Shown piece by piece: positions 42,067 through 62,071 of a DNA stretch of 64,000 bases (its first letter is position 1; each line of letters begins with the position of its first letter). The translations under genes and the position numbers were made by a program. The stretch is from the NCBI RefSeq assembly GCF_004138165.1, contig NZ_RYFF01000011.1:62001-126000 (forward strand), written 5' to 3'. The notes beneath the pieces are model-generated. The model searched no databases. It worked only from the letters and a program-made list of their open reading frames with translations, and had not been told where the DNA came from. This DNA comes from Candidatus Chloroploca sp. Khr17 (GTDB lineage Bacteria; Chloroflexota; Chloroflexia; Chloroflexales; Chloroflexaceae).

Positions 42067-42245
42067 CCCAGGGCTGAGGCAACGTCAACTCTCCGGGGTC
42101 GCCGTCGCCGTCAATGGCTCGGCTCTTGCGTGCCAAGCCCGCCCGCGCGGGCTGGATGAGGCCGCGCAGGCGGCCTTCGCGACCCATAGCCGCGGGCTTC
42201 AGCCCCACGGTGCTCCGGTCAGGCGGACGTTGCATCAGCCCTGGG
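42067..42245. repeat. Palindromic GGCTGAAGCCC-family element
   Basis: The ends pair with one mismatch: CCCAGGGCTGAGGCAACGT at the left and ACGTTGCATCAGCCCTGGG at the right. The inner part, read on the minus strand, has GTGGGGCTGAAGCCCGCGGC and GCGAAGGCCGCCTGCGCGGC. It shares ends and core with the 120-bp element inside cydD (59538-59657). No gene is present between 41976 and 42374. Confidence 0.75.
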
Positions 42246-42293
42246 TTGCCTCCGGCGGTGCGGTTTGGGGGGCCTGCGGCCACCAGGGATCGC

Positions 42294-42346
42294 GCTTGTG
42301 CTGGCGAAAACGGCCAGCTTCGCTGGCCGTTTTCGCCAGCACAAGC
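42294..42346. repeat. Perfect 25-bp-arm hairpin
   Basis: Arms 42294-42318 and 42322-42346 pair perfectly around a TTC loop. The core GTGCTGGCGAAAACGGCC equals that of the hairpin after hoxH. It lies about 30 nt upstream of the ATG of the next gene, so it will be in that mRNA leader if transcription starts upstream. Confidence 0.8.
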
Positions 42347-42374
42347 ATGGGTTTTGGCTGAAAGAAGAAGGTAT

Positions 42375-42917
42375 ATGCATTCATCGCTTGCCCGTTTGAT
42401 TGTCTATGCGTGCCCGTTGGGGCCACTGGCCGAGCAGATCGCGGCGTTTTACGATGCCAGTCGTGCCCAGTTTGGGCCAAACAAGGCCCATGCTTACCCG
42501 CCACATATAACGCTGACAGGCTTTTTTCAGGATGAAGCGGCAGCGATACCCGTGTATGCCAGCGCCCTCGCGGCGGCCTGGACAACAGCCATGGTGCAAC
42601 GGCCCGATCCGCCGGTCATCGTCACGGAACTGGCCTGCACTGAAGCCTTTCACGGCCTTTTGATCGTTTCACCATGGCTCGAGAGCCTGACCGCCGACTT
42701 TGCGGCGCGGGCAGTCTCGCCCACCAGACACGAGGCCATCCGCCTCAAAAGCCAGTTGCATCTGAGTCTGGCCTATGGCTTCAACGCCACCGATGGCCCA
42801 GCACTTGGGGCCATGGCTCAGGCCATGGTCGATCCAGCAGCACCAGTGCAATGGGAGGTGCAGCTGTACGAACAAGGTGAGGCGTGGAAGATGCACGGAC
42901 TGGCCCACGGCTTATAA
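42375..42917 (+). CDS. 2H phosphoesterase-like protein
   Basis: A 180-residue protein with two H-x-[ST]-x motifs, HITLTGFF (about residue 41) and HLSLAYGF (about residue 127). These are the hallmark of the 2H phosphoesterase fold, found in 2'-5' RNA ligases and cyclic phosphodiesterases. The start ATG at 42375 is followed by LARLIVYACPLGPLAEQIAA. The substrate is unknown; a nucleotide or sugar cyclic phosphate is possible. A long hairpin stands just upstream. It is probably monocistronic. Confidence 0.7.
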   Translation: MHSSLARLIVYACPLGPLAEQIAAFYDASRAQFGPNKAHAYPPHITLTGFFQDEAAAIPVYASALAAAWTTAMVQRPDPPVIVTELACTEAFHGLLIVSPWLESLTADFAARAVSPTRHEAIRLKSQLHLSLAYGFNATDGPALGAMAQAMVDPAAPVQWEVQLYEQGEAWKMHGLAHGL

Positions 42918-46002: not shown

Positions 46003-47181
46003 TCACCCCCGGCTTGCTCGCTCCCACATCACGTTATCCCAGTAAATCGGCGTGCCATTGCGGATCGTCCCGCGCATGCGCGGCAAGCGACCATCTTCGA
46101 CCAGGCAAAGATCGGCACGCAGGCCGGGGGCAATGCGTCCGTGTTCGGCCATGTTGAGGGCGGCAGCAGGCCCGGCGGTCACCATGCCAATGCTTGTGGG
46201 GAGATCGGTGATGCCCTCGCGGGCAAGACCAAAGGCCGCATGGAGGAGCGTGCCGGGGTGATAGTCGGTCGCCAGACAGTCCACAAGACCCGCTGCGACG
46301 GCTTCACGGGCACTCAGATTTCCCGAGTGGGAGACGCCACGCAGCGCATTGGGGCCGCCCATCACGATCGACATGCCACGGAGGCGGGCCTCCTGGGCCG
46401 CCTCGAGCGTCACGGGAAACTCGGCGATGGTCGCCCCGAGGGTGGCGACGAGGTCAACTTTCGCCGACGTATCGTCGTCGTGCGAGGCAATGGGCAGGCC
46501 CATTTCTGTGGCCAGCACCGCAATGTCACGCGCCAGCGCCCAGCGTTCTTCCAGGCTTCCCGCCTGCGCAAGACGTTGGTCTAATTCCTCTTCGACATGA
46601 TCACGCGGAATGCGCCGCCATCGCGACATCGAGGTGACATAGCGCTCGATGTTACGGTACTGCCCCTGCCCCGGCGTATGATCCATCAGCGAGAGCAATT
46701 CGATCTGTCCGGTCTCAAGCAGATCGCCAAGCATCGGCGAAACAACTGGCGTTGAGACTTCAAAACGCGCATGCACCCGTAGATCGATCAACAATTGTGA
46801 TCGCAACTGGTGAATATGCTCGGTCATCAGGCGCACGGTATCGAGGCGGCGGGTATTATCGTGGCTATCATGATCCCAGAATGAGAGCGCCGCATAGGCG
46901 GTGGTAATGCCTGTCGCAGCAAGGCGCTTGTCCAGTTCAAAGATTGCCATATCAATCGGAAAATCGGCCCCGAGGCGCGGTTCGATCTCGCGTTCGAGCA
47001 TGTCGCCGTGGAGGTCGATCATGCCAGGGATGAGCGTCAGCCCGCGCCCCTCAATAAGTGGCATAGCACCAACAATGGCGTCACCTTCATCAAACGCCGC
47101 GATGTGCTCGCCCTCAATGCGAAGCCAGCCACGCTCAATGACCATCGTAGGGAGGACGATACGAACATTTGCGATCAACAT
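46003..47181 (-). CDS. phnM: PhnM, ribose 1-methylphosphonate 5-triphosphate diphosphatase
   Basis: PhnM removes pyrophosphate from alpha-D-ribose 1-methylphosphonate 5-triphosphate before C-P cleavage. The 392-residue protein is an amidohydrolase-fold enzyme with PGMIDLHGDMLEREIEPR as the metal motif near the N-terminus, LMDHTPGQGQYR, SHDDDTSAK and LATDYHPGTLL as further metal or catalytic segments. Length is normal. It is the last phn gene of the run, 129 nt after phnL, with a hairpin in between. Confidence 0.93.
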   Translation of the reverse strand: MLIANVRIVLPTMVIERGWLRIEGEHIAAFDEGDAIVGAMPLIEGRGLTLIPGMIDLHGDMLEREIEPRLGADFPIDMAIFELDKRLAATGITTAYAALSFWDHDSHDNTRRLDTVRLMTEHIHQLRSQLLIDLRVHARFEVSTPVVSPMLGDLLETGQIELLSLMDHTPGQGQYRNIERYVTSMSRWRRIPRDHVEEELDQRLAQAGSLEERWALARDIAVLATEMGLPIASHDDDTSAKVDLVATLGATIAEFPVTLEAAQEARLRGMSIVMGGPNALRGVSHSGNLSAREAVAAGLVDCLATDYHPGTLLHAAFGLAREGITDLPTSIGMVTAGPAAALNMAEHGRIAPGLRADLCLVEDGRLPRMRGTIRNGTPIYWDNVMWERASRG

Positions 47182-47310: not shown

Positions 47311-47985
47311 TCATGCGACATGAAATTCTGCATCAATCAATCCTGCGATATCTTCGGGGTGATGAAAGACACCGATCATCGCAACGCCGGCTGCCTTGAG
47401 CACGCTGATCCGCGAGCAGAGTGCAGCGCGGGCGTCGGGATCAAGGGCTGCCGTTGGCTCGTCGAGTAGCAGCAGGCGCCGCGGGGCGATCATCGCACGC
47501 GCCAGGTTGATCTTCTGTTGCTCACCCCCCGAGAAAGTGCTCGGATAGGCCTGCCAGATCGCGGCCTTGAGCCCAAGCGACCCAAGCCAATCAGCCGCTG
47601 CCTCACGCGCTTCGGCGAGGCTGTGCCCGGCCACAAGCAATGGCTCAGCGACAAGGTCAAGCGCCGTCACCCGTGGACGTGGGCGCAGGAACTGGGTGAC
47701 ATGGCCGATTTCGGTTCGACGCAAGAGGGCAATGTCGACATCAGCGGCCGAGGCGAGATCAATCATTCCGTCAGTCGTGGCATAAATCGCCCGCCCGCGA
47801 TCAGGGAGATAGGTGCGGTAGAGGCAACGCAAAAGTGACGATTTGCCTGCCCCATTTGGGCCACGGATCAGCAACAGACTGCCCGCTTCAAGCGCAAAGC
47901 TAACGCCTTGAAAGGCTGGAATAGTGCGGCCCAGGGCGTGAATGACAAAGTTCTTGCTCAGATCTTCGACGTGAAGAAGCGGCAT
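47311..47985 (-). CDS. phnL: PhnL, ATP-binding protein of the C-P lyase system
   Basis: PhnL is an ABC-type ATPase that joins the C-P lyase core complex; it is not part of a membrane transporter. The 224 residues have GPNGAGKSSLLRCLY (Walker A), FSGGEQQKINLARAM (signature) and LLLLDEPTAALD (Walker B). The N-terminus LLHVEDLSKNFVIHALG is typical of PhnL. It is 89 nt downstream of phnK. Confidence 0.92.
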   Translation of the reverse strand: MPLLHVEDLSKNFVIHALGRTIPAFQGVSFALEAGSLLLIRGPNGAGKSSLLRCLYRTYLPDRGRAIYATTDGMIDLASAADVDIALLRRTEIGHVTQFLRPRPRVTALDLVAEPLLVAGHSLAEAREAAADWLGSLGLKAAIWQAYPSTFSGGEQQKINLARAMIAPRRLLLLDEPTAALDPDARAALCSRISVLKAAGVAMIGVFHHPEDIAGLIDAEFHVA

Positions 47986-48074: not shown

Positions 48075-48929
48075 TCAGAGACGGGCCGAGACGAGTTGCT
48101 GGGTGTAGGGATGTTGAGGATCATCAAGAATCTGATCGGTCAGGCCGCCTTCGACAACTGCACCATGGCGCATGACGAGTACCCGGTCGGCCAGGGTGCG
48201 AATGACCCCCAGGTCGTGCGAGACGATGAGTGTGGTGATCTGGCGCTCACGCCGCAGGCGCAGCAGAGTGTCAAGGACGAGGGCTTGAATCGAGACATCA
48301 AGGCCGGTTGTTGGCTCGTCAAGCAGCAGCAAGGCCGGTCGCAGCGCAATGGCTTTGGCGAGTTGCACCCGTTGTTGCATCCCGCCCGAAAGCATCGCTG
48401 GCGGGTCGTCAATGCGATCAGCCGGAAATTCGGAACTTGCCAACGCTTCGCTTGCCGCCCGCCGCAGCGTCGCAAAACGACGCTCGCCCGCCATGATGAG
48501 CCGTTCGGCCACATTGCCGCCACTAGTCGCCTGCATCCGCAGGCCCATATGCGGCTGCTGGTAGACAATGCCAATCTGCTGGATGCGGAGTTGCCGCTGA
48601 TGAAAACGATCGAGCGCAAAGAGGTTCTGCCCCGTAAACCCTGGCACGGCCAAATGGTAGGTGCCTGTGTCGGTTGCCTCTTCTAGGTTGAGCAGCCGGA
48701 GGACGGTCGATTTGCCCGAGCCTGATTCACCCACAATGCCCACTGTTTCACCAGGGTAGAGCTCGAGGTTCACGCCCTGCACCGCAACAATGCGCCCATA
48801 GCGCTTGCTCAGGCCGCGTAGTTCCAGCAGGGGTGCCTGTCGAACCAAACGCGGCGGCAGCAACCGACGCTGGTGTGGCTGCGGCTGAGGCGTCACAGGC
48901 TCGCCGTTCATACCTAGCTTACTCTTCAC
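48075..48929 (-). CDS. phnK: PhnK, ATP-binding protein of the C-P lyase system
   Basis: PhnK is the ABC-type ATPase that binds the PhnGHIJ core and is needed for C-P bond cleavage in vivo. The 284-residue protein has GESGSGKSTVLRLLN, the PhnK-typical YQQPHMGLRMQATSGGNVAE, LSGGMQQRVQLAKAI and LLLLDEPTTGLD. About 25 extra residues at the N-terminus precede the domain. Its start overlaps the end of phnJ by 11 nt. It resembles oligopeptide-transport ATPases, but the HMGLRMQ segment and context support PhnK. Confidence 0.92.
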   Translation of the reverse strand: MKSKLGMNGEPVTPQPQPHQRRLLPPRLVRQAPLLELRGLSKRYGRIVAVQGVNLELYPGETVGIVGESGSGKSTVLRLLNLEEATDTGTYHLAVPGFTGQNLFALDRFHQRQLRIQQIGIVYQQPHMGLRMQATSGGNVAERLIMAGERRFATLRRAASEALASSEFPADRIDDPPAMLSGGMQQRVQLAKAIALRPALLLLDEPTTGLDVSIQALVLDTLLRLRRERQITTLIVSHDLGVIRTLADRVLVMRHGAVVEGGLTDQILDDPQHPYTQQLVSARL

Positions 48930-49857
48930 GGATCACCCCTGGCTGATAAAAATGGCCCTCATCATCAAAATAGGTTGCGCCAAGAGTGGCTGCGTCGCCG
49001 CGTGCGCGACGTAGCAATTTGGCGGCATAACCAGTGTCGGAAAGGCGGAACTGTGAACCACCTTCAGCAACTGGCAGTTCATCCATAAATTTGTTGCGTG
49101 CTCCGGTAAGCATGCAGATCCGTCCAGCCATGTTCTCGACCTGAAAAAAGACATCTTCAAATTCAATCGGGCGCACGTCGGTATACGGTGGCACCGCATA
49201 GAGCCGCTTTTCACGCCCTGCCGAGAGCAGCGTGAGATGGGCGGCCTGGTGCAACGCGGGCGTGTCCCAGCGGGGAATGGGGCTGGGACTCATCAAGTAA
49301 CGCCCGTGGACAAGCACGGGATAGCTGGCACCCTGCATAAACCGTCCGAAGCGCACCAGTTGTTCATAGAGCGTCAGCCACATCTGGGCATAGTCGGCAT
49401 CGGCGTGCATCTCACGGGCACGTGAACTATCGGGTTGCACCTGGCGCAGAGGTTCTGGATCGGGCACCTGCAAGACGAGCACCTGCCCCTCGCGCAAACG
49501 TTCCTCGGGCACGCGATGGCGACTCTGGATCACTGTGGCGTCAAGGGTATCGGTGGTGGTAGCGACACCCGTCATACGGGCAATGAAACGACGCAGGTTA
49601 GCCGCGTTGACCGAGTCGTCGGCACCCTGGTCGATCACCTTGAGCGTATCAACCGGGCTCACGATGCTCAGCGTCACCTGGAGGCCACCGGTGCCCCACC
49701 CACGGGCAATCGGCAGCTCACGGCTGGCATAGGGCACCTGGAAACCAGGAATGGCAATTGCTTTGAGCATGCGCCGCCGCAATTCACGTTTTGCGAACGC
49801 ATCCAGGAAACCGTAGCTGAAATCCTGGCGGGGATGGGCAAGCGAGGCAAGACTCAT
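48919..49857 (-). CDS. phnJ: PhnJ-family protein lacking three of four catalytic cysteines
   Basis: PhnJ is the radical-SAM lyase that breaks the C-P bond of ribose 1-methylphosphonate 5-phosphate. This 312-residue protein aligns with it over its length: IAIPGFQVPYASRELPIARG, GWGTGGLQVTLSIV, VIDQGADDSVNA, SRHRVPEE, PSPIPRWDTP and GREKRLYAVPPYTDV. In E. coli PhnJ a CX2CX21CX5C motif holds the [4Fe-4S] cluster and the catalytic thiol. Here only Cys248 remains; the others are Thr251, Leu272 and Ala278 (RLSDTGYA), and no other cysteine exists in the protein. The reading frame is open and overlaps phnI by 4 nt, so this does not look like a decaying gene. Its chemistry is uncertain. Confidence 0.9.
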   Translation of the reverse strand: MSLASLAHPRQDFSYGFLDAFAKRELRRRMLKAIAIPGFQVPYASRELPIARGWGTGGLQVTLSIVSPVDTLKVIDQGADDSVNAANLRRFIARMTGVATTTDTLDATVIQSRHRVPEERLREGQVLVLQVPDPEPLRQVQPDSSRAREMHADADYAQMWLTLYEQLVRFGRFMQGASYPVLVHGRYLMSPSPIPRWDTPALHQAAHLTLLSAGREKRLYAVPPYTDVRPIEFEDVFFQVENMAGRICMLTGARNKFMDELPVAEGGSQFRLSDTGYAAKLLRRARGDAATLGATYFDDEGHFYQPGVIREE

Positions 49858-50963
49858 TGCGCGTCTCCTGGCTCTGTGGGGGTATCGGCGGCCGTTGCGC
49901 GGGCGTCACGGAGGGCATCGAGGCCACTTTGAAACGTGACATAGTGAGGAAGTTTGTAGTGGATGCAGAAACCGGACGCTTCGACGGGTTCAGTATGATA
50001 GAGCACAAACTCTTCGCTATGGGCCGGATGGGGTTGCGGGGCATCCATCTCGAGATCGAGCATCGCCCCGGCGATGCATTTGACCTCATTCCAACCCAGG
50101 GTTGCCGTGTAGCCGAGGCGCAATTCGGTGGCCTGCGTATCGACGACCTCGCACTGACTGACCCGCACCCGCCCGATGCTAAAGGCTTCGCCGGTGACGG
50201 GATGGCGCAGGCGCACATCGGCATAGGCCAGACGCAACTCGTTGACAGTCGGGTGGGCAAGGCCATAGCCACGCATACTGGCATAGCCAAGGGCCAGCAC
50301 GCCCCCCGTATCGGCGCGTGCCAGGGCTTGCAGACGATGGGCACGCGGGGCCGGAAAATCGGCTGGCTCGCGGGTCAGATCAGGTAAGGAGGCCGGATCG
50401 GTAAGCGGAACTTCAGGCACCGCCGCAAGCAAACCCTCGCTACGCTGCCAGTCAGCAACCGCCAGCGGTGATGGATCGTACGAGGGAGGCACCTCGTCCA
50501 CCGGGGCATCAGATGACACGGTAGCCGCAGGAGGAGCAGATGCACTGTGAGCCTGATTGTCCTGATCGAGCAGATCAAGCCGCAGCAAGCGATGGCTGTA
50601 ATCAAGACTCGGCCCGAGGATCTGACCGCCCGGAATATCCTTGAATGAGGCCGAAATGCGGCGCACCGTCAGCAACTCGGTCTGCGTCACCGGCTCGGCA
50701 TAGGCAAGGCGGGGTTGGGTCGAACGGTAAGCCCGCAAGAGCAACACCGCCTCGTAGAGATCGCCGCCCGTCTGGGCGAGCGCAAGCGCGGCCAATTCAG
50801 GCGCATAGAGGGAACCTTCGCCCATCACGCGATCAACAAGATAGGGCAGGCTCGCTTCGATCATCCGCACCGTCGCGAGGCTCAACGGAGCGTTGAGCAA
50901 CTGATGCAACTGCTCGGATTGAAGGATCGCCGCCTCGCCACCGCGTGCTGCCACATAGGCCAT
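49854..50963 (-). CDS. phnI: PhnI, nucleosidase component of the C-P lyase core
   Basis: PhnI acts with PhnG, PhnH and PhnL to join methylphosphonate to the ribose of ATP, releasing adenine. The 369-residue protein matches the family: VDRVMGEGSLYAPELAALAL, ISASFKDIPGGQILGP, DYSHRLLRLDLL, LALGYASMRGYG and the C-terminal HYKLPHYVTFQSGLDAL, with the two histidines of the metal site at the PhnI-PhnJ interface. A Pro/Ala/Ser-rich insert lies around residues 135-165. The gene overlaps phnH by 1 nt and phnJ by 4 nt. Confidence 0.93.
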   Translation of the reverse strand: MAYVAARGGEAAILQSEQLHQLLNAPLSLATVRMIEASLPYLVDRVMGEGSLYAPELAALALAQTGGDLYEAVLLLRAYRSTQPRLAYAEPVTQTELLTVRRISASFKDIPGGQILGPSLDYSHRLLRLDLLDQDNQAHSASAPPAATVSSDAPVDEVPPSYDPSPLAVADWQRSEGLLAAVPEVPLTDPASLPDLTREPADFPAPRAHRLQALARADTGGVLALGYASMRGYGLAHPTVNELRLAYADVRLRHPVTGEAFSIGRVRVSQCEVVDTQATELRLGYTATLGWNEVKCIAGAMLDLEMDAPQPHPAHSEEFVLYHTEPVEASGFCIHYKLPHYVTFQSGLDALRDARATAADTPTEPGDAQ

Positions 50964-51514
50964 CAGCCCACCTCCACCCTGGTCGTCCGTGGCAGGCCAA
51001 TGACCTGATCGCCATCCACGAGATAGAGATCCCAGCCGAGCGGATAGGAAGCCACGGTAGCACGGGCACGCCAGAGTTCATCAGGCAAACGAGCAACCGT
51101 GATCGTCAGTGGTTGGGCAAGGCCAGGGCCACTGAGGTGCAGCGGTGTTCCTTGCGCAAACCCACACCCGAGCACCAGGGTTGCCCCACGATCCGGCTCG
51201 GCGTACGTGCCAAGCGGGGCCGTCACGAGCAGATCAAGCTCGGCGAGGGTGAGTTGAGGATAAAATTGGTAGGGTGCGTCGCCTGGCGGGAGTGAACGGC
51301 CGCCGGTTGCGGCGAGGGCAGGTGCGAGATCGTGATGCGGCGTAAAAAAACCGGTTTCGAGATCAAGCAACGTCTCACCGATAGCAACAAAGGCGGCCAG
51401 GCCAGCAGCGGGGAGGCGCTGAGGGCGTCCAGGGTAACTGAACGCCCACATCAACGCCGTAAAAGTCGCGTGCTGACGCAATTCGGCGGGAGTCATGCGC
51501 GGCATAGACATCAA
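50963..51514 (-). CDS. phnH: PhnH, C-P lyase core subunit
   Basis: PhnH is a small subunit of the PhnGHIJ core with a PLP-transferase-like fold but no PLP site. The 183 residues match: TFTALMWAFSYPGRPQRLPA, LLDLETGFFTP, GTYAEPDRGATLVL, LSGPGLAQPLTITVA and YPLGWDLYLVDGDQVIGLPR. Its start overlaps the phnG stop (ATGA). The N-terminus has several possible ATG codons (51514 or 51505). Confidence 0.92.
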   Translation of the reverse strand: MMSMPRMTPAELRQHATFTALMWAFSYPGRPQRLPAAGLAAFVAIGETLLDLETGFFTPHHDLAPALAATGGRSLPPGDAPYQFYPQLTLAELDLLVTAPLGTYAEPDRGATLVLGCGFAQGTPLHLSGPGLAQPLTITVARLPDELWRARATVASYPLGWDLYLVDGDQVIGLPRTTRVEVG

Positions 51515-51930
51515 AACGTCTCCAGATCAACCCTCGTTTGCCCAACCGCGCGCATCAAGGCTTCATCGGTCTCCGCCAGATCAGCAGCCTGGGTGCGGGC
51601 AAAATCGGCGATAGCGGGGCCAGCGATCCCGGCGCGATGGGCGGCATCGATCAGCGCGAGGGCGAGCGCCTGCTCAAGATCGCGCCCCAGACAGGCTGCA
51701 TACCCTTCAACCCCAGCGACACGGACATGAGCCTCGGCCAACAAAATCTCGCCCAGGTAAAACGTGCTCGCCTGGGCCGTTTCACGAAATGGCAACATCG
51801 CCAATCCTGTTCGGTTGCGCAACACCTCTACCGGCTCAAGGCGCGGCAGCAGATCCTCCGCAAAGCGCTTGACCGCATCCGCAGGGGCACGGGTCAAGAT
51901 ATCCAATAGCTCGTGTGCTTGCATCAGCAT
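51511..51930 (-). CDS. phnG: PhnG, C-P lyase core subunit
   Basis: PhnG is the smallest core subunit and forms the central dimer with PhnI. The 139 residues carry FYLGEILLAEAHVRV, GVEGYAACLGRDLEQALALA, ALIDAAHRAG and a C-terminal VGQTRVDLETF, all typical. It is the first phn gene of the transcript. The ATG at 51930 is followed by another two codons later. A 70-nt gap separates it from the TIM-barrel gene upstream. Confidence 0.92.
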   Translation of the reverse strand: MLMQAHELLDILTRAPADAVKRFAEDLLPRLEPVEVLRNRTGLAMLPFRETAQASTFYLGEILLAEAHVRVAGVEGYAACLGRDLEQALALALIDAAHRAGIAGPAIADFARTQAADLAETDEALMRAVGQTRVDLETF

Positions 51931-52000: not shown

Positions 52001-52825
52001 TCAACACGCAAAACCGCACCTTGTCAGATAGGCCATCCCACGGGGGATGTGCGCATGATCTTCGAGTTCAAGCAACAGACGTGGCTGATGCGCCAAGGTT
52101 TGCAGGGCGGTAAAAAAGGCATACCAGTTGATTGCGCCATCACCAGGGGCCCAATGACGGTCAAGGTGTCCATCGGTATCCTGAAGATGCACATGCGCAA
52201 GCAGATCGCCGGCTTCGCGCACCCACTGATCAGGCGTAGGGCCACCGATTTGCTGCATCATACGCACGTGGCCTACATCAATGCTGAGCCGTACGAGAGG
52301 GGTATCGAACGAACGCACGAGATCAAGGAGGGGGGCCACACTGCCATCAGCAATCGTCTCGATCACCAGCATGCAATCAAGTGCCTCGGCCTGGGGCAGC
52401 AGAGGCTCGATGACCGCCCGAGCCGCCTTGATTGTTCCCTCACGCCGAGCAAACGGGGTAAAGACGTGAGCCGGGGTGCCAAAGCAGAGAAAGGGGCTAT
52501 GCAGCACCATATGGGTCGCGCCAACCGCCTCGGCAAACGCGAGGCCCTGGCGCAGGCGTTCGATGACCAGTTGACGCACCTTTGCATCGTAGGGGGCCAG
52601 ATCGAGGCCAAGAAACGGCCCGTGGATGCCCAGGCGCCCGGTATAGCCACGAAGCATCTCGCGAGCATGGCGAGCGGCGGTGCGCCAATCACCATCAAGC
52701 ACTTCGGGGGCAATCGGATCCTGGATTTCAAGATCACGCGGCCCATCGAGCAACCAATCGCGATAGACTTCAAGGTCTTTGATCTCTAAGGCCGCCCCCA
52801 TCAGCGGCACCGTTTGCTGGGTCAT
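52001..52825 (-). CDS. Xylose-isomerase-like TIM-barrel protein (AP endonuclease 2 family)
   Basis: A 274-residue TIM barrel of the sugar-phosphate isomerase/epimerase and endonuclease IV superfamily. The metal ligands expected for this fold can be seen: Glu in LVIETIADG, Asp and His in LSIDVGHVRM, His in LAHVHLQDTDGH and Glu in LLLELEDHAH. GRLGIHGPFLGLDLAP gives the N-terminal active-site strand. AAGGAG lies six nt before the ATG at 52825. It follows the PLP enzyme gene directly and precedes phnG by 70 nt on the same strand, so it may process a sugar or sugar phosphate linked to phosphonate use. Substrate unknown. Confidence 0.78.
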   Translation of the reverse strand: MTQQTVPLMGAALEIKDLEVYRDWLLDGPRDLEIQDPIAPEVLDGDWRTAARHAREMLRGYTGRLGIHGPFLGLDLAPYDAKVRQLVIERLRQGLAFAEAVGATHMVLHSPFLCFGTPAHVFTPFARREGTIKAARAVIEPLLPQAEALDCMLVIETIADGSVAPLLDLVRSFDTPLVRLSIDVGHVRMMQQIGGPTPDQWVREAGDLLAHVHLQDTDGHLDRHWAPGDGAINWYAFFTALQTLAHQPRLLLELEDHAHIPRGMAYLTRCGFAC

Positions 52826-52828
52826 CAT

Positions 52829-54025
52829 TTACTCCTTTGCAGCAGCGGCAAACCCACGGGCGAGATCGGCCTGAATATCAACCGCATCCTCAATGCCAAC
52901 CGAGAGGCGCAGCAAACCATCGCCAATACCAAGGGCATGGCGGCGCTCAACCGAGAGTGAGCGATGGGAAGAGCAGGCCGGATAGAGGATCTGACTGGCG
53001 ACACCGCCGAGCGTCGTGACGGGCAAGATCATCTGGAGGGCATCGAGGAAGCGGAGCACAGCGGCTTCGTTGGCCTGCACCAGATCAAACGCAACCATCC
53101 CGCCTGCGCCAGTTGGCAACAGTTGGCGTGTCAGGTGATGCTGGGGATGTGACGGCAAGCCGGGATAGTAGACCTGCGCCACGCCGGGTTGCTCGACGAG
53201 CCAGTTGGCAACCTCGACGGCATTACGGCAATGCTCACGCATGCGCAGGGGCAGCGTGCGCAGGCCACGCAACGCAAGATAGGCAGCATGCGGATCGAGC
53301 AGGCCGCCAGTCAGGATCGTCAGATTGCGCAACTCGGTGGCATACGACTCGCCGGCCAACACAATGCCACCAAGCACATCATCGTGACCGGCAAGATACT
53401 TGGTCAAACTATGCAACACAATATCGGCCCCCAGTTCGAGTGGCCGCAACAGATACGGCGTCGCAAAGGTCGCATCAACAACCAATTGCACATCATGTTC
53501 ATGACAGAGCCGGGCCGCTGCCGAAACATCACAGAGGCGCAGCAACGGATTCGAGATCGGCTCGAGGATCAGCGCCCGGGGACGATGTTCGGCCAGCGCC
53601 GCCGCGAGGGTGGCGCGGTTCGTTGCGTCGACAAAAACCGGACAGACCCCCATGCGACGCATGACCGTATCAACCAGGGCAAACGTCGCACCATACGAGT
53701 CCTGGGCCACCAGCAACGTATCACCAGACTGCAAACCGGTGAGCAACAGGGCGAGATGGACGGCAGCCATACCCGAAGCACATGCACGCGCCACCGCGGC
53801 CCCTTCCATCTGACAGAGAGCCATTTCGAGCGCAGCATTGGTCGGGTTACCATAACGCGAATACGAAAAGCCTGGCACGTCGCCCCCAAGCATCGCGTGG
53901 AGGGTCGCCGCATCAGCGGCATGGTAACTCACCGCCAGGTCAATACCGGGAACAGACGGAATCGAAGGATTGCCTTCATCGGGACGGCCAGCGTGGACAG
54001 CGATGGTAAAGAGACTCTCAGACAT
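52829..54025 (-). CDS. Cys/Met metabolism PLP-dependent enzyme (cystathionine gamma-synthase/lyase family)
   Basis: A 398-residue fold-type I PLP enzyme. The N-terminus has TIAVHAGRPDEGN, then YSRYGNPTNAALEMALCQME, ASGMAAVHLALLL (phosphate loop), DATFATPYLLRPLELGADIV and the PLP lysine in HSLTKYLAGHDDVLGG. The C-terminus has LGGVASQILYPACSSHRSL and LRLSVGIEDAVDI, as in cystathionine gamma-synthase, lyase and methionine gamma-lyase. Substrate cannot be assigned. The ATG at 54025 follows AGGAG. The TIM-barrel gene starts directly after its stop, so it probably heads the phn transcript. Confidence 0.87.
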   Translation of the reverse strand: MSESLFTIAVHAGRPDEGNPSIPSVPGIDLAVSYHAADAATLHAMLGGDVPGFSYSRYGNPTNAALEMALCQMEGAAVARACASGMAAVHLALLLTGLQSGDTLLVAQDSYGATFALVDTVMRRMGVCPVFVDATNRATLAAALAEHRPRALILEPISNPLLRLCDVSAAARLCHEHDVQLVVDATFATPYLLRPLELGADIVLHSLTKYLAGHDDVLGGIVLAGESYATELRNLTILTGGLLDPHAAYLALRGLRTLPLRMREHCRNAVEVANWLVEQPGVAQVYYPGLPSHPQHHLTRQLLPTGAGGMVAFDLVQANEAAVLRFLDALQMILPVTTLGGVASQILYPACSSHRSLSVERRHALGIGDGLLRLSVGIEDAVDIQADLARGFAAAAKE

Positions 54026-54072
54026 AACAGGCTCCTGGAGGCTACAACACGGCTGCTGCCCGCAAAACCAAG

Positions 54073-54099
54073 GCTTGTGCTGGTGGAAACAGCACAAGC
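54073..54099. repeat. Short hairpin in the leader of the PLP-enzyme gene
   Basis: GCTTGTGCTG (54073-54082) and CAGCACAAGC (54090-54099) flank a GTGGAAA loop, about 50 nt upstream of the ATG. The arms share GCTTGTGCTG with the outer part of the hairpin at 42294-42346. Confidence 0.5.
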
Positions 54100-54135
54100 G
54101 AGCTTCAGAGAAGCGTATCGGATCCGTGGCAGCGA

Positions 54136-54597
54136 TCAATCAAAAAGATGGATATCGAGCTGAACATGCGCACTCTGCGTTGGATCAAGCGAACCGAAGA
54201 TGACCTCGGCCAGCAACGTAGGGTGAGGTGCCGTAGCAAGCGCAAAGAGATGGGTCGAGCAGGGGCTATCACTGGCACCAAACCCCGGCACAGGCATTGT
54301 AACACCAGAAACGGACGCAAGCGCACGACACCAGGCTTGCTCCATCCGCCCGGTGCCACTCAACGTCCAGGCGGCACGGAGGTGTGCTTGTGCCCGGAGA
54401 TAATCAATATGCCAGTGCAGACGAGGTTTGCGGGGGTTGGCGTGATGCTTGAGGCGCGCCGCCAACCCACCCGAACCAAAGGCACTGCCCACATAGAGGT
54501 AAAACCCCGAGGCAAACGCAAACGAACCCAGACGCCCAATCTGAAGGTGAGTGAGCGTCTGGTCAAGTTGGAGTACCAGGATATAGGTACCCTTCAT
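54136..54597 (-). CDS. DUF123 / GIY-YIG-like protein
   Basis: A 153-residue protein. GTYILVLQLDQTLTHLQIGR and GFYLYVGSAFGSGGLAARLK give the GIY-YIG-like core, followed by RKPRLHWHIDYLRAQAHL and EQAWCRAL, the pattern of DUF123 proteins fused to endonuclease III in archaea or found alone in bacteria. It may act as a small nuclease. The ATG at 54597 is the natural start; the frame is open further upstream into the VKOR gene without similarity. It lies 28 nt downstream of that gene. Confidence 0.75.
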   Translation of the reverse strand: MKGTYILVLQLDQTLTHLQIGRLGSFAFASGFYLYVGSAFGSGGLAARLKHHANPRKPRLHWHIDYLRAQAHLRAAWTLSGTGRMEQAWCRALASVSGVTMPVPGFGASDSPCSTHLFALATAPHPTLLAEVIFGSLDPTQSAHVQLDIHLFD

Positions 54598-54625
54598 TGG
54601 CGAGGGACGAAGCTGTGGAGCATTG

Positions 54626-55708
54626 CTAGCGATTAGCTGCCACAGGGCGACGATTGACTTTGCCCCGCCCCCGTTGCACAGGCGCTGCCCCACGGGGAGT
54701 CGTCACCCAGAGCAGAGCCGTCATAATTGCAGCCGAGGCAATGCACCACATGCAGGTTGCACCGATGACAAAAGGTTCGAGGAAGGTCAGGTAGATCGAA
54801 AAGAGCGTCCCGCCGAAGGCCATGAGTGGCATCGCGAGCCTAGCATAGTGGGCGGCCGAACCTGCGCCAAAACGATACACAAGCCACGCAACCAGGAAGA
54901 AGGCATACCCAGCAACCCCCAGCACCCCAACCGGAATGCCAAGGAGCGTCGCATAGACACTCTGCTGAACCGCATTGCAATCGCCAACCGGCCCACAGAC
55001 CGCCTCGGCACCACTCACTTCGACGAACGCAAGATAGGCCGAGACGATGATGCCAGCGACGGCAAGGATTGGCACCGCCAGATTGCGCCACCCGAGCAGT
55101 GGGCGATCAAAAGGCGGGCGGGTCGTAATCGCGACCACAAAGACCGACACAGCCATCAACAAAAGCATCAAGAGCGCGATGCTATTGCCCAGCGGATCGC
55201 GCTGAAACGGGCTCACCGCCGATGCCGTGGGGGGCACCACCGCAACCTCGCCCGCGTCAGTCGTGACCACCTGGGCCGCAATGACCGGTTCGATCCCCGG
55301 AATAGTGGGCCAAGCATTGCCGCCAGCGGCAAGCGCCTGTTCGATCAAACCAGGCAACATCGCCGGGATCTCGCCACTGCCAACCATCACCGTCTCGCCA
55401 AAGACCATGGTAGGCACACCGAGGCGATCATCGGGAATATTGAAGGCCGTAATCGCCGCCTGATACAGTGCCTGACCAGCAGGCTGGCTAACGTCAATCT
55501 GCACAATCTGGAGCTGTGAACCATAGCGCGCCTGAAGCGGCGGCAAGACCTCGTCCATGACAGTATGGCAATGGGGGCAGGTCGGCGAAAAGAAAAAGAC
55601 GGCGCGGGCGGCTGGATCAGCCGCCGCAACGCGCCCGGCAAACACGAACATCAGCAAAAGCGTCGCCACCCCAAGGAGCGACCAGCGTGAAACATTTCTC
55701 TGTAGCAT
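54626..55708 (-). CDS. Thioredoxin-like domain fused to vitamin K epoxide reductase (VKOR)
   Basis: A 360-residue membrane protein that should form disulfide bonds in exported proteins. An N-terminal signal or anchor (LLGVATLLLMFVFAGRVAAA) leads to a thioredoxin-like domain with the CxxC site FFSPTCPHCHTVMDEVL. A linker and then a VKOR domain of four to five helices follow: CGPVGDCNAVQQS holds the loop cysteines and IGATCMWCIASA the CxxC next to the quinone. This order is the reverse of the cyanobacterial VKOR-Trx fusion. The ATG at 55708 has AGGAG seven nt upstream. Confidence 0.87.
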   Translation of the reverse strand: MLQRNVSRWSLLGVATLLLMFVFAGRVAAADPAARAVFFFSPTCPHCHTVMDEVLPPLQARYGSQLQIVQIDVSQPAGQALYQAAITAFNIPDDRLGVPTMVFGETVMVGSGEIPAMLPGLIEQALAAGGNAWPTIPGIEPVIAAQVVTTDAGEVAVVPPTASAVSPFQRDPLGNSIALLMLLLMAVSVFVVAITTRPPFDRPLLGWRNLAVPILAVAGIIVSAYLAFVEVSGAEAVCGPVGDCNAVQQSVYATLLGIPVGVLGVAGYAFFLVAWLVYRFGAGSAAHYARLAMPLMAFGGTLFSIYLTFLEPFVIGATCMWCIASAAIMTALLWVTTPRGAAPVQRGRGKVNRRPVAANR

Positions 55709-60377: not shown

Positions 60378-62071
60378 GCACGCCACGCCTGTTCTTACGC
60401 CTGCTCGTGCTGATCGCGCCGTATCGAGGCTGGTTCGCGCTTGCGGTCTTGCTCGGCTTTGCGACGGTGGGCAGCAGCATCGGCCTGATTGCAACGTCAT
60501 CCTACCTGATCGCCAGTGCCGCCCTGATGCCCTCGATTGCCGTCTTGAGTCTGCCGATCGTCGGTGTCCGCTTCTTTGGCATTGCGCGGGCGCTCTTGCG
60601 GTATACCGAGCGTTATACGGCGCATACGGCTACCTTCCGGCTGCTCGCAGGGATGCGAGGCTGGTTTTATGAGGCGGTCGAACCGCTGGCCCCTGCCGGT
60701 CTAGTTGACCAGCGCGGGGGCGACCTGCTCGCACGAGCCGTCGGTGATGTGGAAACGCTCGAACAATTCTACCTGCGCGTGCTCGCGCCACCCCTCGTCG
60801 CGCTGCTCGCCGGCCTGCTCGCCTGCGGACTGATGCTCGCCTTTGACCTGCGGCTGGCGCTCGCCCTGTTGTTGCTGCTTGCCCTGGCAGGCCTCGCCGT
60901 GCCGCTGCTCGTCCGCGCTCTGAGTCGGCGCCCTGCCGGGGCAAGCATCGCCTACCGCGCCAAGCTCTCGACCAACCTGGTCGAAGGCTTGCAGGCGCTT
61001 GACGACCTGCTGGCGCTCGGGCGCGAGGATCTGCTCTTGGCACGGGTGCGCGAAGATAGCCACCGCCTGACGCAGGCCCAAGAACGTCTGGCGGCGGTGC
61101 GCGGCCTCGGCAACGGTCTCGTGCTTTTGCTGAGCCACCTCGCTGCGGTTGCTATGCTCCTCATCGCCATCCCCTTAGTGCACAACGGCGAGCTCGACGG
61201 GGTCTACCTGGCCTTGCTTGCGCTGACCGCCCTGGCCTCATTTGAAGCCGTGACCCCACTCGCGGTCGCGTTGCAGAGCCTCGAAACGAGTCTGGCGGCG
61301 GCACGCCGGATCTTTGCCCTCACCGACACCCCAGCGCAGATCAGCCACGAACCGGTCACTTCACCAGAACCGCAAGATAACAGTCTCGAACTGCGCAACG
61401 TCAGCTTCAGCTATCCCGGCCAGTCCCAGAACGTCCTGGAGAACCTGAGTTTGCGCATCGAGCCGGGGCAGCAACTGGCCCTAATCGGCCCAAGCGGGGT
61501 AGGCAAAAGCACCCTGGTGCAGTTGATTTTGCGCTTCTGGGAAGGATGGAGCGGCGAGATCCTACTTGGCGGTGTTCCGCTCCAGGCGTATCGCGCCGAA
61601 GACGTACGGCAGATGATCGGCGTGGTTGCCCAGCACACACACCTCTTCAACGGCACCATCGCCGACAACCTGCGCATCGCCCGCCCAATGGCAAGCCAGG
61701 CCGAACTGGACGAAGCGTGTCGGCGCGCCCACCTGAGCGACCTGATCAACCGGCTACCAAACGGCTACGACACCTGGATCGGCGAACAGGGCATGAAACT
61801 CAGCGGCGGCGAACGTCAGCGACTCGCCATCGCCCGCGCCCTGCTGAAAGACGCCCCGATTCTCATCCTGGACGAACCAACGGCTCATCTCGACCAGGCC
61901 ACCGCCAGCGACGTCGTCGCCGCACTCGAAGAACTACGCCAGGGGCGCACCACGCTCACAATCACCCACCGCCACGAACACCTTGCCAGCGTTGAGCGGA
62001 TTGTGGAGCTATATCAAGCCCGCTGCGGAAACGATGCGGATCATCCCACGACGAAAGGCGCCGAGTCATAA
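60374..62071 (+). CDS. cydC: CydC, ABC exporter subunit for cytochrome bd assembly
   Basis: CydC is the partner of CydD. The 565-residue protein has the CydC-type membrane-domain motif LSLPIVGVRFFGIARALLRY followed by ERYTAHTATFRLLAGMR. Its ATPase has GPSGVGKSTLVQLIL, LSGGERQRLAIARAL and ILILDEPTAHLD. It overlaps cydD by 4 nt. The linker between domains is short and lacks the repeat found in CydD, giving a direct comparison for the insertion. Confidence 0.92.
   Translation: MSTPRLFLRLLVLIAPYRGWFALAVLLGFATVGSSIGLIATSSYLIASAALMPSIAVLSLPIVGVRFFGIARALLRYTERYTAHTATFRLLAGMRGWFYEAVEPLAPAGLVDQRGGDLLARAVGDVETLEQFYLRVLAPPLVALLAGLLACGLMLAFDLRLALALLLLLALAGLAVPLLVRALSRRPAGASIAYRAKLSTNLVEGLQALDDLLALGREDLLLARVREDSHRLTQAQERLAAVRGLGNGLVLLLSHLAAVAMLLIAIPLVHNGELDGVYLALLALTALASFEAVTPLAVALQSLETSLAAARRIFALTDTPAQISHEPVTSPEPQDNSLELRNVSFSYPGQSQNVLENLSLRIEPGQQLALIGPSGVGKSTLVQLILRFWEGWSGEILLGGVPLQAYRAEDVRQMIGVVAQHTHLFNGTIADNLRIARPMASQAELDEACRRAHLSDLINRLPNGYDTWIGEQGMKLSGGERQRLAIARALLKDAPILILDEPTAHLDQATASDVVAALEELRQGRTTLTITHRHEHLASVERIVELYQARCGNDADHPTTKGAES

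Follow-up and report, generated by a model that had tools for sequence, protein, structure and literature searches.

How can a carbon-phosphorus (C-P) lyase module operate once its PhnJ protein has lost most of the cysteines assigned to the iron-sulfur (Fe-S) cluster and the thiyl radical? This question is raised by a phnJ gene of Candidatus Chloroploca sp. Khr17 (Chloroflexota), found in the stretch of 64,000 nucleotides analyzed here (positions 62,001 to 126,000 of contig NZ_RYFF01000011.1; hereafter, the window). Alignment with E. coli PhnJ (entry 4xb6) places Cys241, Cys244, Cys266 and Cys272 of the latter opposite Cys248, Thr251, Leu272 and Ala278, exactly the residues named by the initial annotation of this DNA, and Cys248 is, as it also stated, the sole cysteine of the protein; with a single cysteine, the classical radical S-adenosylmethionine (SAM) motif CX3CX2C is absent. 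We designate as Cys-less the PhnJ proteins devoid of Cys244, Cys266 and Cys272 (E. coli numbering), i.e., of three of the four Fe-S/thiyl cysteines of E. coli PhnJ. Cys-less PhnJ is not an error, not a decaying copy and not merely a helper. Sequence comparisons indicate that it is an old, transferable clade with a co-diverged PhnI rather than the oddity of a single organism. As to its function, we tentatively favor, at a little under even chances, a module that would ribosylate a phosphorus compound from ATP and free the phosphorus at a zinc site by 2'-OH attack, without any radical; we infer this reaction, the class of substrate and the part attributed below to PhnI Cys326.

A sequencing error or a pseudogene was considered and rejected. 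The frame is open, the residues flanking the four positions align, and the two other searched genomes of the genus (G014 and G015) carry the same residues at these positions. Most differences between the window gene and these relatives are synonymous (54 and 63, compared with 4 and 5 non-synonymous), and the ratio of non-synonymous to synonymous rates (dN/dS) is 0.02. Taken together, these observations make an error very unlikely. The gene had been described as full length, overlapping its neighbors and accompanied by intact phnG, H, I, K, L and M, with which the open reading frames (ORFs), their overlaps and the profile matches agree. On the minus strand, phnG-H-I-J-K-L-M follow one another in that order between 51930 and 46003. 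Successive genes from phnG to phnK overlap by 4, 1, 4 and 11 bases (phnJ sharing 4 with phnI and 11 with phnK), and gaps of 89 and 129 bases precede phnL and phnM, respectively. The same set and order are those of the E. coli system, in which the PhnGHIJ core associates with PhnK and PhnL (PDB 4xb6, 7z15-7z19).

Dependence on a second PhnJ encoded elsewhere was one of three explanations initially offered, and it does not hold for this genome. A PF06007 profile search of all 171 contigs of the Khr17 genome (6,376,501 bases, completeness 100, contamination 1.3) returned one match and no second PhnJ, and the 24 other Chloroflexota-type genomes with a Cys-less PhnJ have one PhnJ each. "Chloroflexota type" here covers Chloroflexota genomes together with L031 (which bears the label Bacteroidetes, perhaps through misbinning) and L033 (its label being just bacterium), both of which branch among them. 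Cys-less PhnJ is the sole PhnJ in 25 of the 25 Chloroflexota-type genomes found with it, most of which are drafts: six from loci retrieved by a contig scan (the best 80 of 589 relatives, family sizes being lower bounds), 17 of the window's family and two further Chloroflexota. With no other PhnJ in any of them, the Cys-less form is autonomous in these genomes. Among the 28 genomes behind the contig-scan loci, the six Chloroflexota-type ones are those without another PhnJ that enter this count. Among the 22 alphaproteobacterial genomes with the Cys-less form, a canonical PhnJ is also present in 19 (interrupted by a contig boundary in one of them) and missing from three; where both occur, the Cys-less form is an addition, not a replacement. 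These 19 genomes are what could suggest that the protein assists a canonical PhnJ of its own cell, serves as its decoy, or is decaying. Such a role is contradicted for Chloroflexota by the 25 genomes in which the protein stands alone, as it also does in three alphaproteobacteria, and is made highly improbable overall by a dN/dS of 0.02-0.18 for the full gene in 15 pairs chosen from the group, and by the possession of its own module, whose form of PhnI constitutes a separate group. In the C-terminal stretch of these pairs, dN/dS reaches 0.41 in one and is saturated in another. Altogether, codon comparisons indicate that the Cys-less clade is under purifying selection. Both forms can be close neighbors: in a Rhodobacteraceae genome (G068), a four-cysteine and a Cys-less PhnJ lie about 9 kb apart on contig C24 (28375 and 37708), and a further canonical PhnJ is found on contig C22.

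The PhnJ proteins compared came from the window, E. coli, genomes of the window's family, genome contig loci, further genomes and plasmid records. They amount to 133 distinct proteins, 83 with all four cysteines and 50 without Cys244, Cys266 and Cys272; no intermediate was seen among them except for the replacement of Cys241 by Asp in two Cys-less proteins. Chance does not account for a loss common to all 50, which represent three phyla: 23 are of Chloroflexota type, 25 come from Alphaproteobacteria and two from Thermus. In a PhnJ tree calculated without the C-terminal domain, the 50 proteins form one group, corresponding to one change, with a Shimodaira-Hasegawa-like approximate likelihood ratio test (SH-aLRT) value of 91, below the 95 mark; the PhnJ of plasmid pVV8 of Thermus HB8 and that of SNM1-1 split from the other 48 members. 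The PhnI tree recovers the group at SH-aLRT 100 (53 Cys-less rows, 47 of them distinct, versus 82 canonical rows), and its recovery in both trees argues that PhnI and PhnJ co-diverged. Both trees were built by a quick method and carry a warning of long branches that meet, those of canonical Chloroflexota and three proteobacterial rows in the PhnJ tree, and those of Thermus among others in the PhnI tree.

Within the window's family, PhnJ occurs in 27 of 41 genomes, 17 with the Cys-less and 10 with the canonical form, none with both. The canonical proteins, from genera g4 and g18, have four cysteines in all ten genomes and branch outside the Cys-less group; in three loci inspected (L162-L164), phnC/E-like transporter genes are followed by phnI-J-K-L-M. 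A comparison of PhnJ across Chloroflexota, initially proposed as a check, revealed the Cys-less form in 11 of the 36 PhnJ-bearing genomes of a 400-genome sample, distributed over three families. The clade is also present in Paracoccus, Devosia, Neorhizobium, Mesorhizobium, Haematobacter and other alphaproteobacteria, and on two Thermus thermophilus plasmids, including pVV8 of HB8, whose PhnJ displays C, T, V, and M at the four positions and is encoded in a phnCDE-GHIJKLM cluster. A survey of 387 alphaproteobacterial genomes with a C-terminal profile produced two strong matches (one being the centre genome) and one weak match (23.5 bits), counts that are a lower bound with at most the best 16 candidates per genome scored. 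The module is well preserved in the 46 Cys-less loci, several of which end at contig edges: phnG and phnH were found in 45 each, phnI in 46 and phnM in 41. Paracoccus shanxieyensis (L034) and a Haematobacter massiliensis plasmid (L138) encode an identical Cys-less PhnJ core and Aureimonas altamirensis (L043) a nearly identical one, which suggests recent spread between genera. These Paracoccus and Aureimonas genomes also share an identical canonical PhnJ (L108, L109), so that one of them may be contaminated. On the canonical side, contig C2 of G325 (Chloroflexota) bears two phn clusters about 12 kb apart (183351 and 196174), each with a four-cysteine PhnJ.

None of the 50 Cys-less proteins retains the cluster ligands Cys244, Cys266 and Cys272, and all 50 retain Gly47, Trp48, Gly49, Thr50, Arg107, His108 and Gln124. 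In the available text of PMC9947105, Arg107, Gln124, His108 and loop 47-50 of E. coli PhnJ are reported to hold the product-like 5-phosphoribosyl 1,2-cyclic phosphate, and zinc to sit on PhnI His328 and His333, joined by His219 in the open state. These three histidines are present in 53 of 53 Cys-less PhnI rows; His328 and His333 are likewise found in all 82 canonical rows. The window type and E. coli PhnJ have the same fold, the same zinc and ligand residues and Gly32, the proposed site of a glycyl radical. An AlphaFold model of the window PhnJ (mean predicted confidence, pLDDT, 87.1) superimposes on E. coli PhnJ (7z18_D) with a Z score of 35.7 and a root-mean-square deviation of 1.8 over 270 residues, covering model residues 11-285 and including the central insertion and the C-terminal domain typical of the PhnJ fold. 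It was computed from an alignment of 68 proteins that held canonical sequences, on which the modelled C-terminal domain leans; with 29 Cys-less sequences alone, the model is poor (pLDDT 50.8). The model shows that the window sequence fits the PhnJ fold, which is not proof that its C-terminal domain would fold free of metal.

Other positions differ between the clade and the canonical proteins. In PhnI, the residue that precedes His328 by two, at position 326, is Cys in every Cys-less row but the two of Thermus, which have Ala (Cys in 51 of 53); the 82 canonical rows never have Cys there, but Val, Ile or Leu. Judging from strand alternation, this cysteine would face the zinc. It is the only gained conserved cysteine, none other being detected when the Cys-less and canonical rows of PhnG, H, I, K, L and M were compared. 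Glu252 and Asp318 of PhnI, invariant in the 82 canonical rows, become Gln in 47 and Glu in 51 of the 53 Cys-less rows, respectively. The pVV8 PhnI has none of Cys326, Gln252 and Glu318. In PhnG, positions 43 and 69 are charge-swapped, with Arg/Glu in 38 of 46 Cys-less rows versus Glu/Arg in 34 of 35 canonical rows, and Phe142 is replaced by Glu in all 46. Finally, Tyr takes the place of PhnJ Phe37, a residue of pocket loop 37-49, in 48 of 50 Cys-less but only 3 of 83 canonical proteins.

Based on this pattern, we propose a complete C-P-lyase-type module in which the radical half of the reaction would have been lost and the polar half kept. PhnI, together with PhnG, PhnH and PhnL, would couple an imported phosphorus compound to the ribose C1 of ATP with departure of adenine, and pyrophosphate would then be taken off by PhnM. 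At the PhnI/PhnJ zinc site, with PhnJ His108, the ribose 2'-OH would attack the phosphorus and expel its substituent, yielding 5-phosphoribosyl 1,2-cyclic phosphate. In the canonical scheme, the radical step swaps the alkyl group for a cysteine thiolate, which the ribose 2'-OH then displaces. Because the thiolate cysteine is absent from the Cys-less clade, the substrate would need to bring its own leaving group (alcohol, amine, thiol or stabilised carbanion), or to be assisted by the cysteine that PhnI has acquired close to the zinc site. In its most explicit form, the proposal describes a seven-protein enzyme in which ATP-derived ribose acts as an internal nucleophile in an RNase-like 2'-OH attack at zinc on compounds with their own leaving group, with neither radical nor Fe-S cluster, a serious possibility that nonetheless falls short of being probable. 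If true, canonical C-P lyase would be the Cys-less machine with a radical front end, or the Cys-less machine the canonical one minus it. Among the initial explanations, another reaction on a ribosyl-phosphonate or phosphate is the best supported, the zinc/cyclic-ribose-phosphate site being intact and the cluster ligands gone, while C-P cleavage by different means keeps some probability.

The latter would take the form of a non-radical C-P lyase restricted to ribosyl phosphonates that leave a stabilised carbanion (e.g., beta-carbonyl compounds), or one in which PhnI Cys326 acts as the nucleophile at zinc. Phosphonate-type transporter genes and phnF stand beside many of the clusters, the ligand site is unchanged and the cysteine gained by PhnI lies two residues ahead of a zinc ligand, all of which speak for it; nevertheless, beta-carbonyl phosphonates have simpler hydrolases (PhnX, PhnA and PalA), and the Ala at position 326 in both Thermus rows fits poorly, such that we consider this reading rather unlikely. 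Conversely, PhnJ could be a scaffold only, the product being a ribosyl conjugate used for storage, detoxification or biosynthesis, with no bond broken at phosphorus. A fold maintained after loss of the cluster ligands is what such a role would predict, but the invariance in all 50 proteins of the seven contacts to the cyclic product-like ligand, including His108, and the presence of PhnN in the three alphaproteobacteria that possess Cys-less PhnJ only, leave it decidedly unlikely.

Radical chemistry might also persist if a cluster were held in another way, by Cys241 and additional ligands, by one of the partner subunits or by a distinct radical SAM activase. In favor of this reading are the invariance of Gly32 and the presence of Cys241 in 48 of 50 proteins. 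However, L030 and L032 have Asp at this position and no cysteine from the core onwards, and 25 of the 50 proteins have one cysteine; PhnI 326 is a lone gain among the partner subunits. A radical SAM partner encoded near the clusters was also sought and rejected, as CX3CX2C occurs in just 4 of 1227 ORFs of at least 200 amino acids (aa) from the 46 Cys-less loci, of which the one in L206, alone scanned against Pfam, is a radical SAM/SPASM protein. We therefore regard a radical mechanism as improbable.

Several observations weigh against the polar reaction that we favor. With Gly32 invariant, part of the radical chemistry might still operate. The clusters have PhnF regulators and hexapeptide proteins in their vicinity, and similar kinds accompany canonical phnJ, which would fit ordinary phosphonates as substrates. 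Phosphatases use phosphate monoesters more cheaply, and the cost in ATP needs a reason. Both Thermus PhnI proteins lack Cys326 and Gln252, and Cys326 is thus not essential clade-wide. Lastly, PhnP does not exceed its cut-off in any of 33 genomes and PhnN in none of the 30 Chloroflexota-type genomes among them (23 Cys-less, 7 canonical). In E. coli, PhnN acts after the opening of the cyclic phosphate; it exceeds its cut-off in the three of three alphaproteobacteria with Cys-less PhnJ only and, being restricted to these 3 of 33 genomes, says nothing for Chloroflexota. Sub-cut-off PhnP matches reach 98-117 bits in 16 of the 17 Cys-less genomes of the window's family and 74 in the 17th, and 86-89 bits in four of seven canonical genomes.

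The surroundings of the clusters bear on both the import of the substrate and the fate of the product. Transporter genes phnC/D/E adjoin many Cys-less clusters, which we count in favor of the proposed ribosylation and polar release. Many Chloroflexota-type clusters are arranged as phnC-E-D, GHIJKLM, then a hexapeptide protein, many alphaproteobacterial ones as phnF-GHIJKLM with phnC-D-E-E (DUF1045 and phnN following phnM in L048 and L141), and those of Thermus as phnC-D-E-GHIJKLM. The TIGR03308 cut-off of 202 is exceeded by two of the three hexapeptide proteins scanned (270 and 274 bits) but not by that of Thermus (183 bits). A YmdB-like or TIGR00282 protein adjoins both Thermus clusters, and relatives of the 2H-like protein of the window occur in 6 of the 46 Cys-less loci, the window locus included, recurring near Chloroflexota ones (component 30 of a single-linkage clustering of neighbors in which real genes are mixed with shadow ORFs). 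We take these proteins, along with the DUF1045 and TIM-barrel proteins, to be possible cyclic phosphodiesterases of several mutually unrelated kinds. Such candidates, together with PhnN, would fit a cyclic ribose phosphate product, which is not proof of it.

A TIM-barrel protein of the AP_endonuc_2 type may be a substitute for PhnP. It was rejected as a mark of Cys-less modules, since it also accompanies two haloarchaeal phn operons, on Natrinema (L210, 4778-12142) and Haloarcula (L211) plasmids, that encode a four-cysteine PhnJ; there, GHIJKLM lead directly into the TIM-barrel gene. In Natrinema, the protein is CbiR-like at 66.7 bits, under the cut-off, and a HAD hydrolase is encoded next; the two are candidate substitutes for PhnP and PhnN. 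Overall, three of the four TIM-barrel proteins scanned match the CbiR phosphodiesterase weakly (28.8, 35.6 and 66.7 bits), all under the cut-off of 105, and the Thermus one does not match. Beside the Cys-less cluster of L049 (11637-15900, minus strand) lie phnC- and phnE-like genes, a second PhnM-like amidohydrolase gene and a TIM-barrel protein with 42% identity to that of the window. In L035 (about 11.6-13.8 kb), a similar TIM-barrel protein is encoded on the plus strand after phnM, and the PhnM-like gene lies on the minus strand.

The mechanism of C-P cleavage by PhnJ is itself unsettled, because the sites invoked lie apart: according to the available portions of PMC9947105 and PMC7916636, about 30 Angstrom separate the cluster site from Gly32, and the zinc site, where the cyclic ribose phosphate is bound, coincides with neither. 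The Cys-less clade, which includes proteins of a thermophile used in the laboratory, amounts to a natural removal of three cluster ligands with the rest kept, by which these roles are separated. Since Gly32 is invariant even in proteins devoid of the cluster ligands, its conservation does not in itself argue for a glycyl radical, and the zinc/His108 site must have a function independent of that radical. It also follows that methane production from methylphosphonate should not be deduced from a phnJ gene or phn operon alone, be it genomic or metagenomic. In six plasmid records examined, the Cys-less genes are annotated as 'C-P-lyase PhnJ'. No account of a PhnJ without these cysteines was found in open-access papers, subscription papers being mostly outside this coverage. 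The consulted portions of PMC11978286 distinguish two major PhnJ clades and confirm the four conserved cysteines in that study's own proteins; neither they nor the corresponding portions of PMC7916636, PMC12413358, PMC9381506, PMC9426474, PMC5529391 and PMC9947105 mention a PhnJ devoid of them.

Table 1. Coordinates of the phn module, of key codons and of neighboring genes in the window; "group" refers to the 50 Cys-less PhnJ proteins.
Feature	Position	Strand	Evidence or remarks
phnJ, Cys-less type, 312 aa, ATG start	48919..49857	-	PF06007 410 bits (cut-off 25); in Cys-less group
Cys248 codon TGC (E. coli Cys241)	49114..49116	-	Group: C 48, D 2 of 50
Thr251 codon ACC (E. coli Cys244)	49105..49107	-	Group: T 25, S 25 of 50
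Leu272 codon CTT (E. coli Cys266)	49042..49044	-	Group: L 22, V 14, I 12, M 1, T 1 of 50
Ala278 codon GCC (E. coli Cys272, proposed thiyl residue)	49024..49026	-	Group mostly G, A, V, M, I
Gly38 codon (E. coli Gly32, proposed glycyl radical)	49744..49746	-	50/50 Cys-less, 83/83 canonical
Arg113-His114 codons (E. coli Arg107-His108, cyclic ribose phosphate contacts)	49516..49521	-	50/50 Cys-less, 83/83 canonical; contacts from available text of PMC9947105
PhnI Cys333 (gained, E. coli position 326), His335 and His340 (E. coli His328 and His333)	49944..49967	-	Cys: 51/53 Cys-less, 0/82 canonical rows; both His: 53/53 and 82/82; His are E. coli zinc ligands
phnI, 369 aa	49854..50963	-	PF05861 380 bits
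phnH	50963..51514	-	PF05845 102 bits; TIGR03292 98.2 bits (cut-off 91.5)
phnG	51511..51930	-	PF06754 74 bits; TIGR03293 86.3 bits, slightly under cut-off 89
phnK (ABC ATPase)	48075..48929	-	TIGR02323 226 bits, best family, under cut-off 303
phnL (ABC ATPase)	47311..47985	-	TIGR02324 230 bits, best family, under cut-off 256
phnM (5-triphosphate diphosphatase)	46003..47181	-	TIGR02318 392.5 bits (cut-off 390.55)
AP_endonuc_2 TIM-barrel protein, candidate phosphodiesterase	52001..52828	-	PF01261 94 bits; CbiR weak, 28.8 bits (cut-off 105)
2H phosphoesterase-like protein	42114..42917	+	PF13563 25.2 bits, under cut-off 27

In the window, the TIM-barrel gene lies upstream of phnG with a gap of 70 bases. 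The 2H phosphoesterase-like protein encoded on the plus strand is of uncertain membership in the phn system. No transporter adjoins the window cluster, and a hexapeptide-phnD-C-E-E set is located on another contig of the same genome. Directly upstream of the TIM-barrel gene and on the same strand, positions 52829-54693 encode a pyridoxal phosphate (PLP) enzyme of Cys/Met metabolism and a DUF123 protein; a relative of the PLP enzyme is also found near the cluster of G031 (L159).

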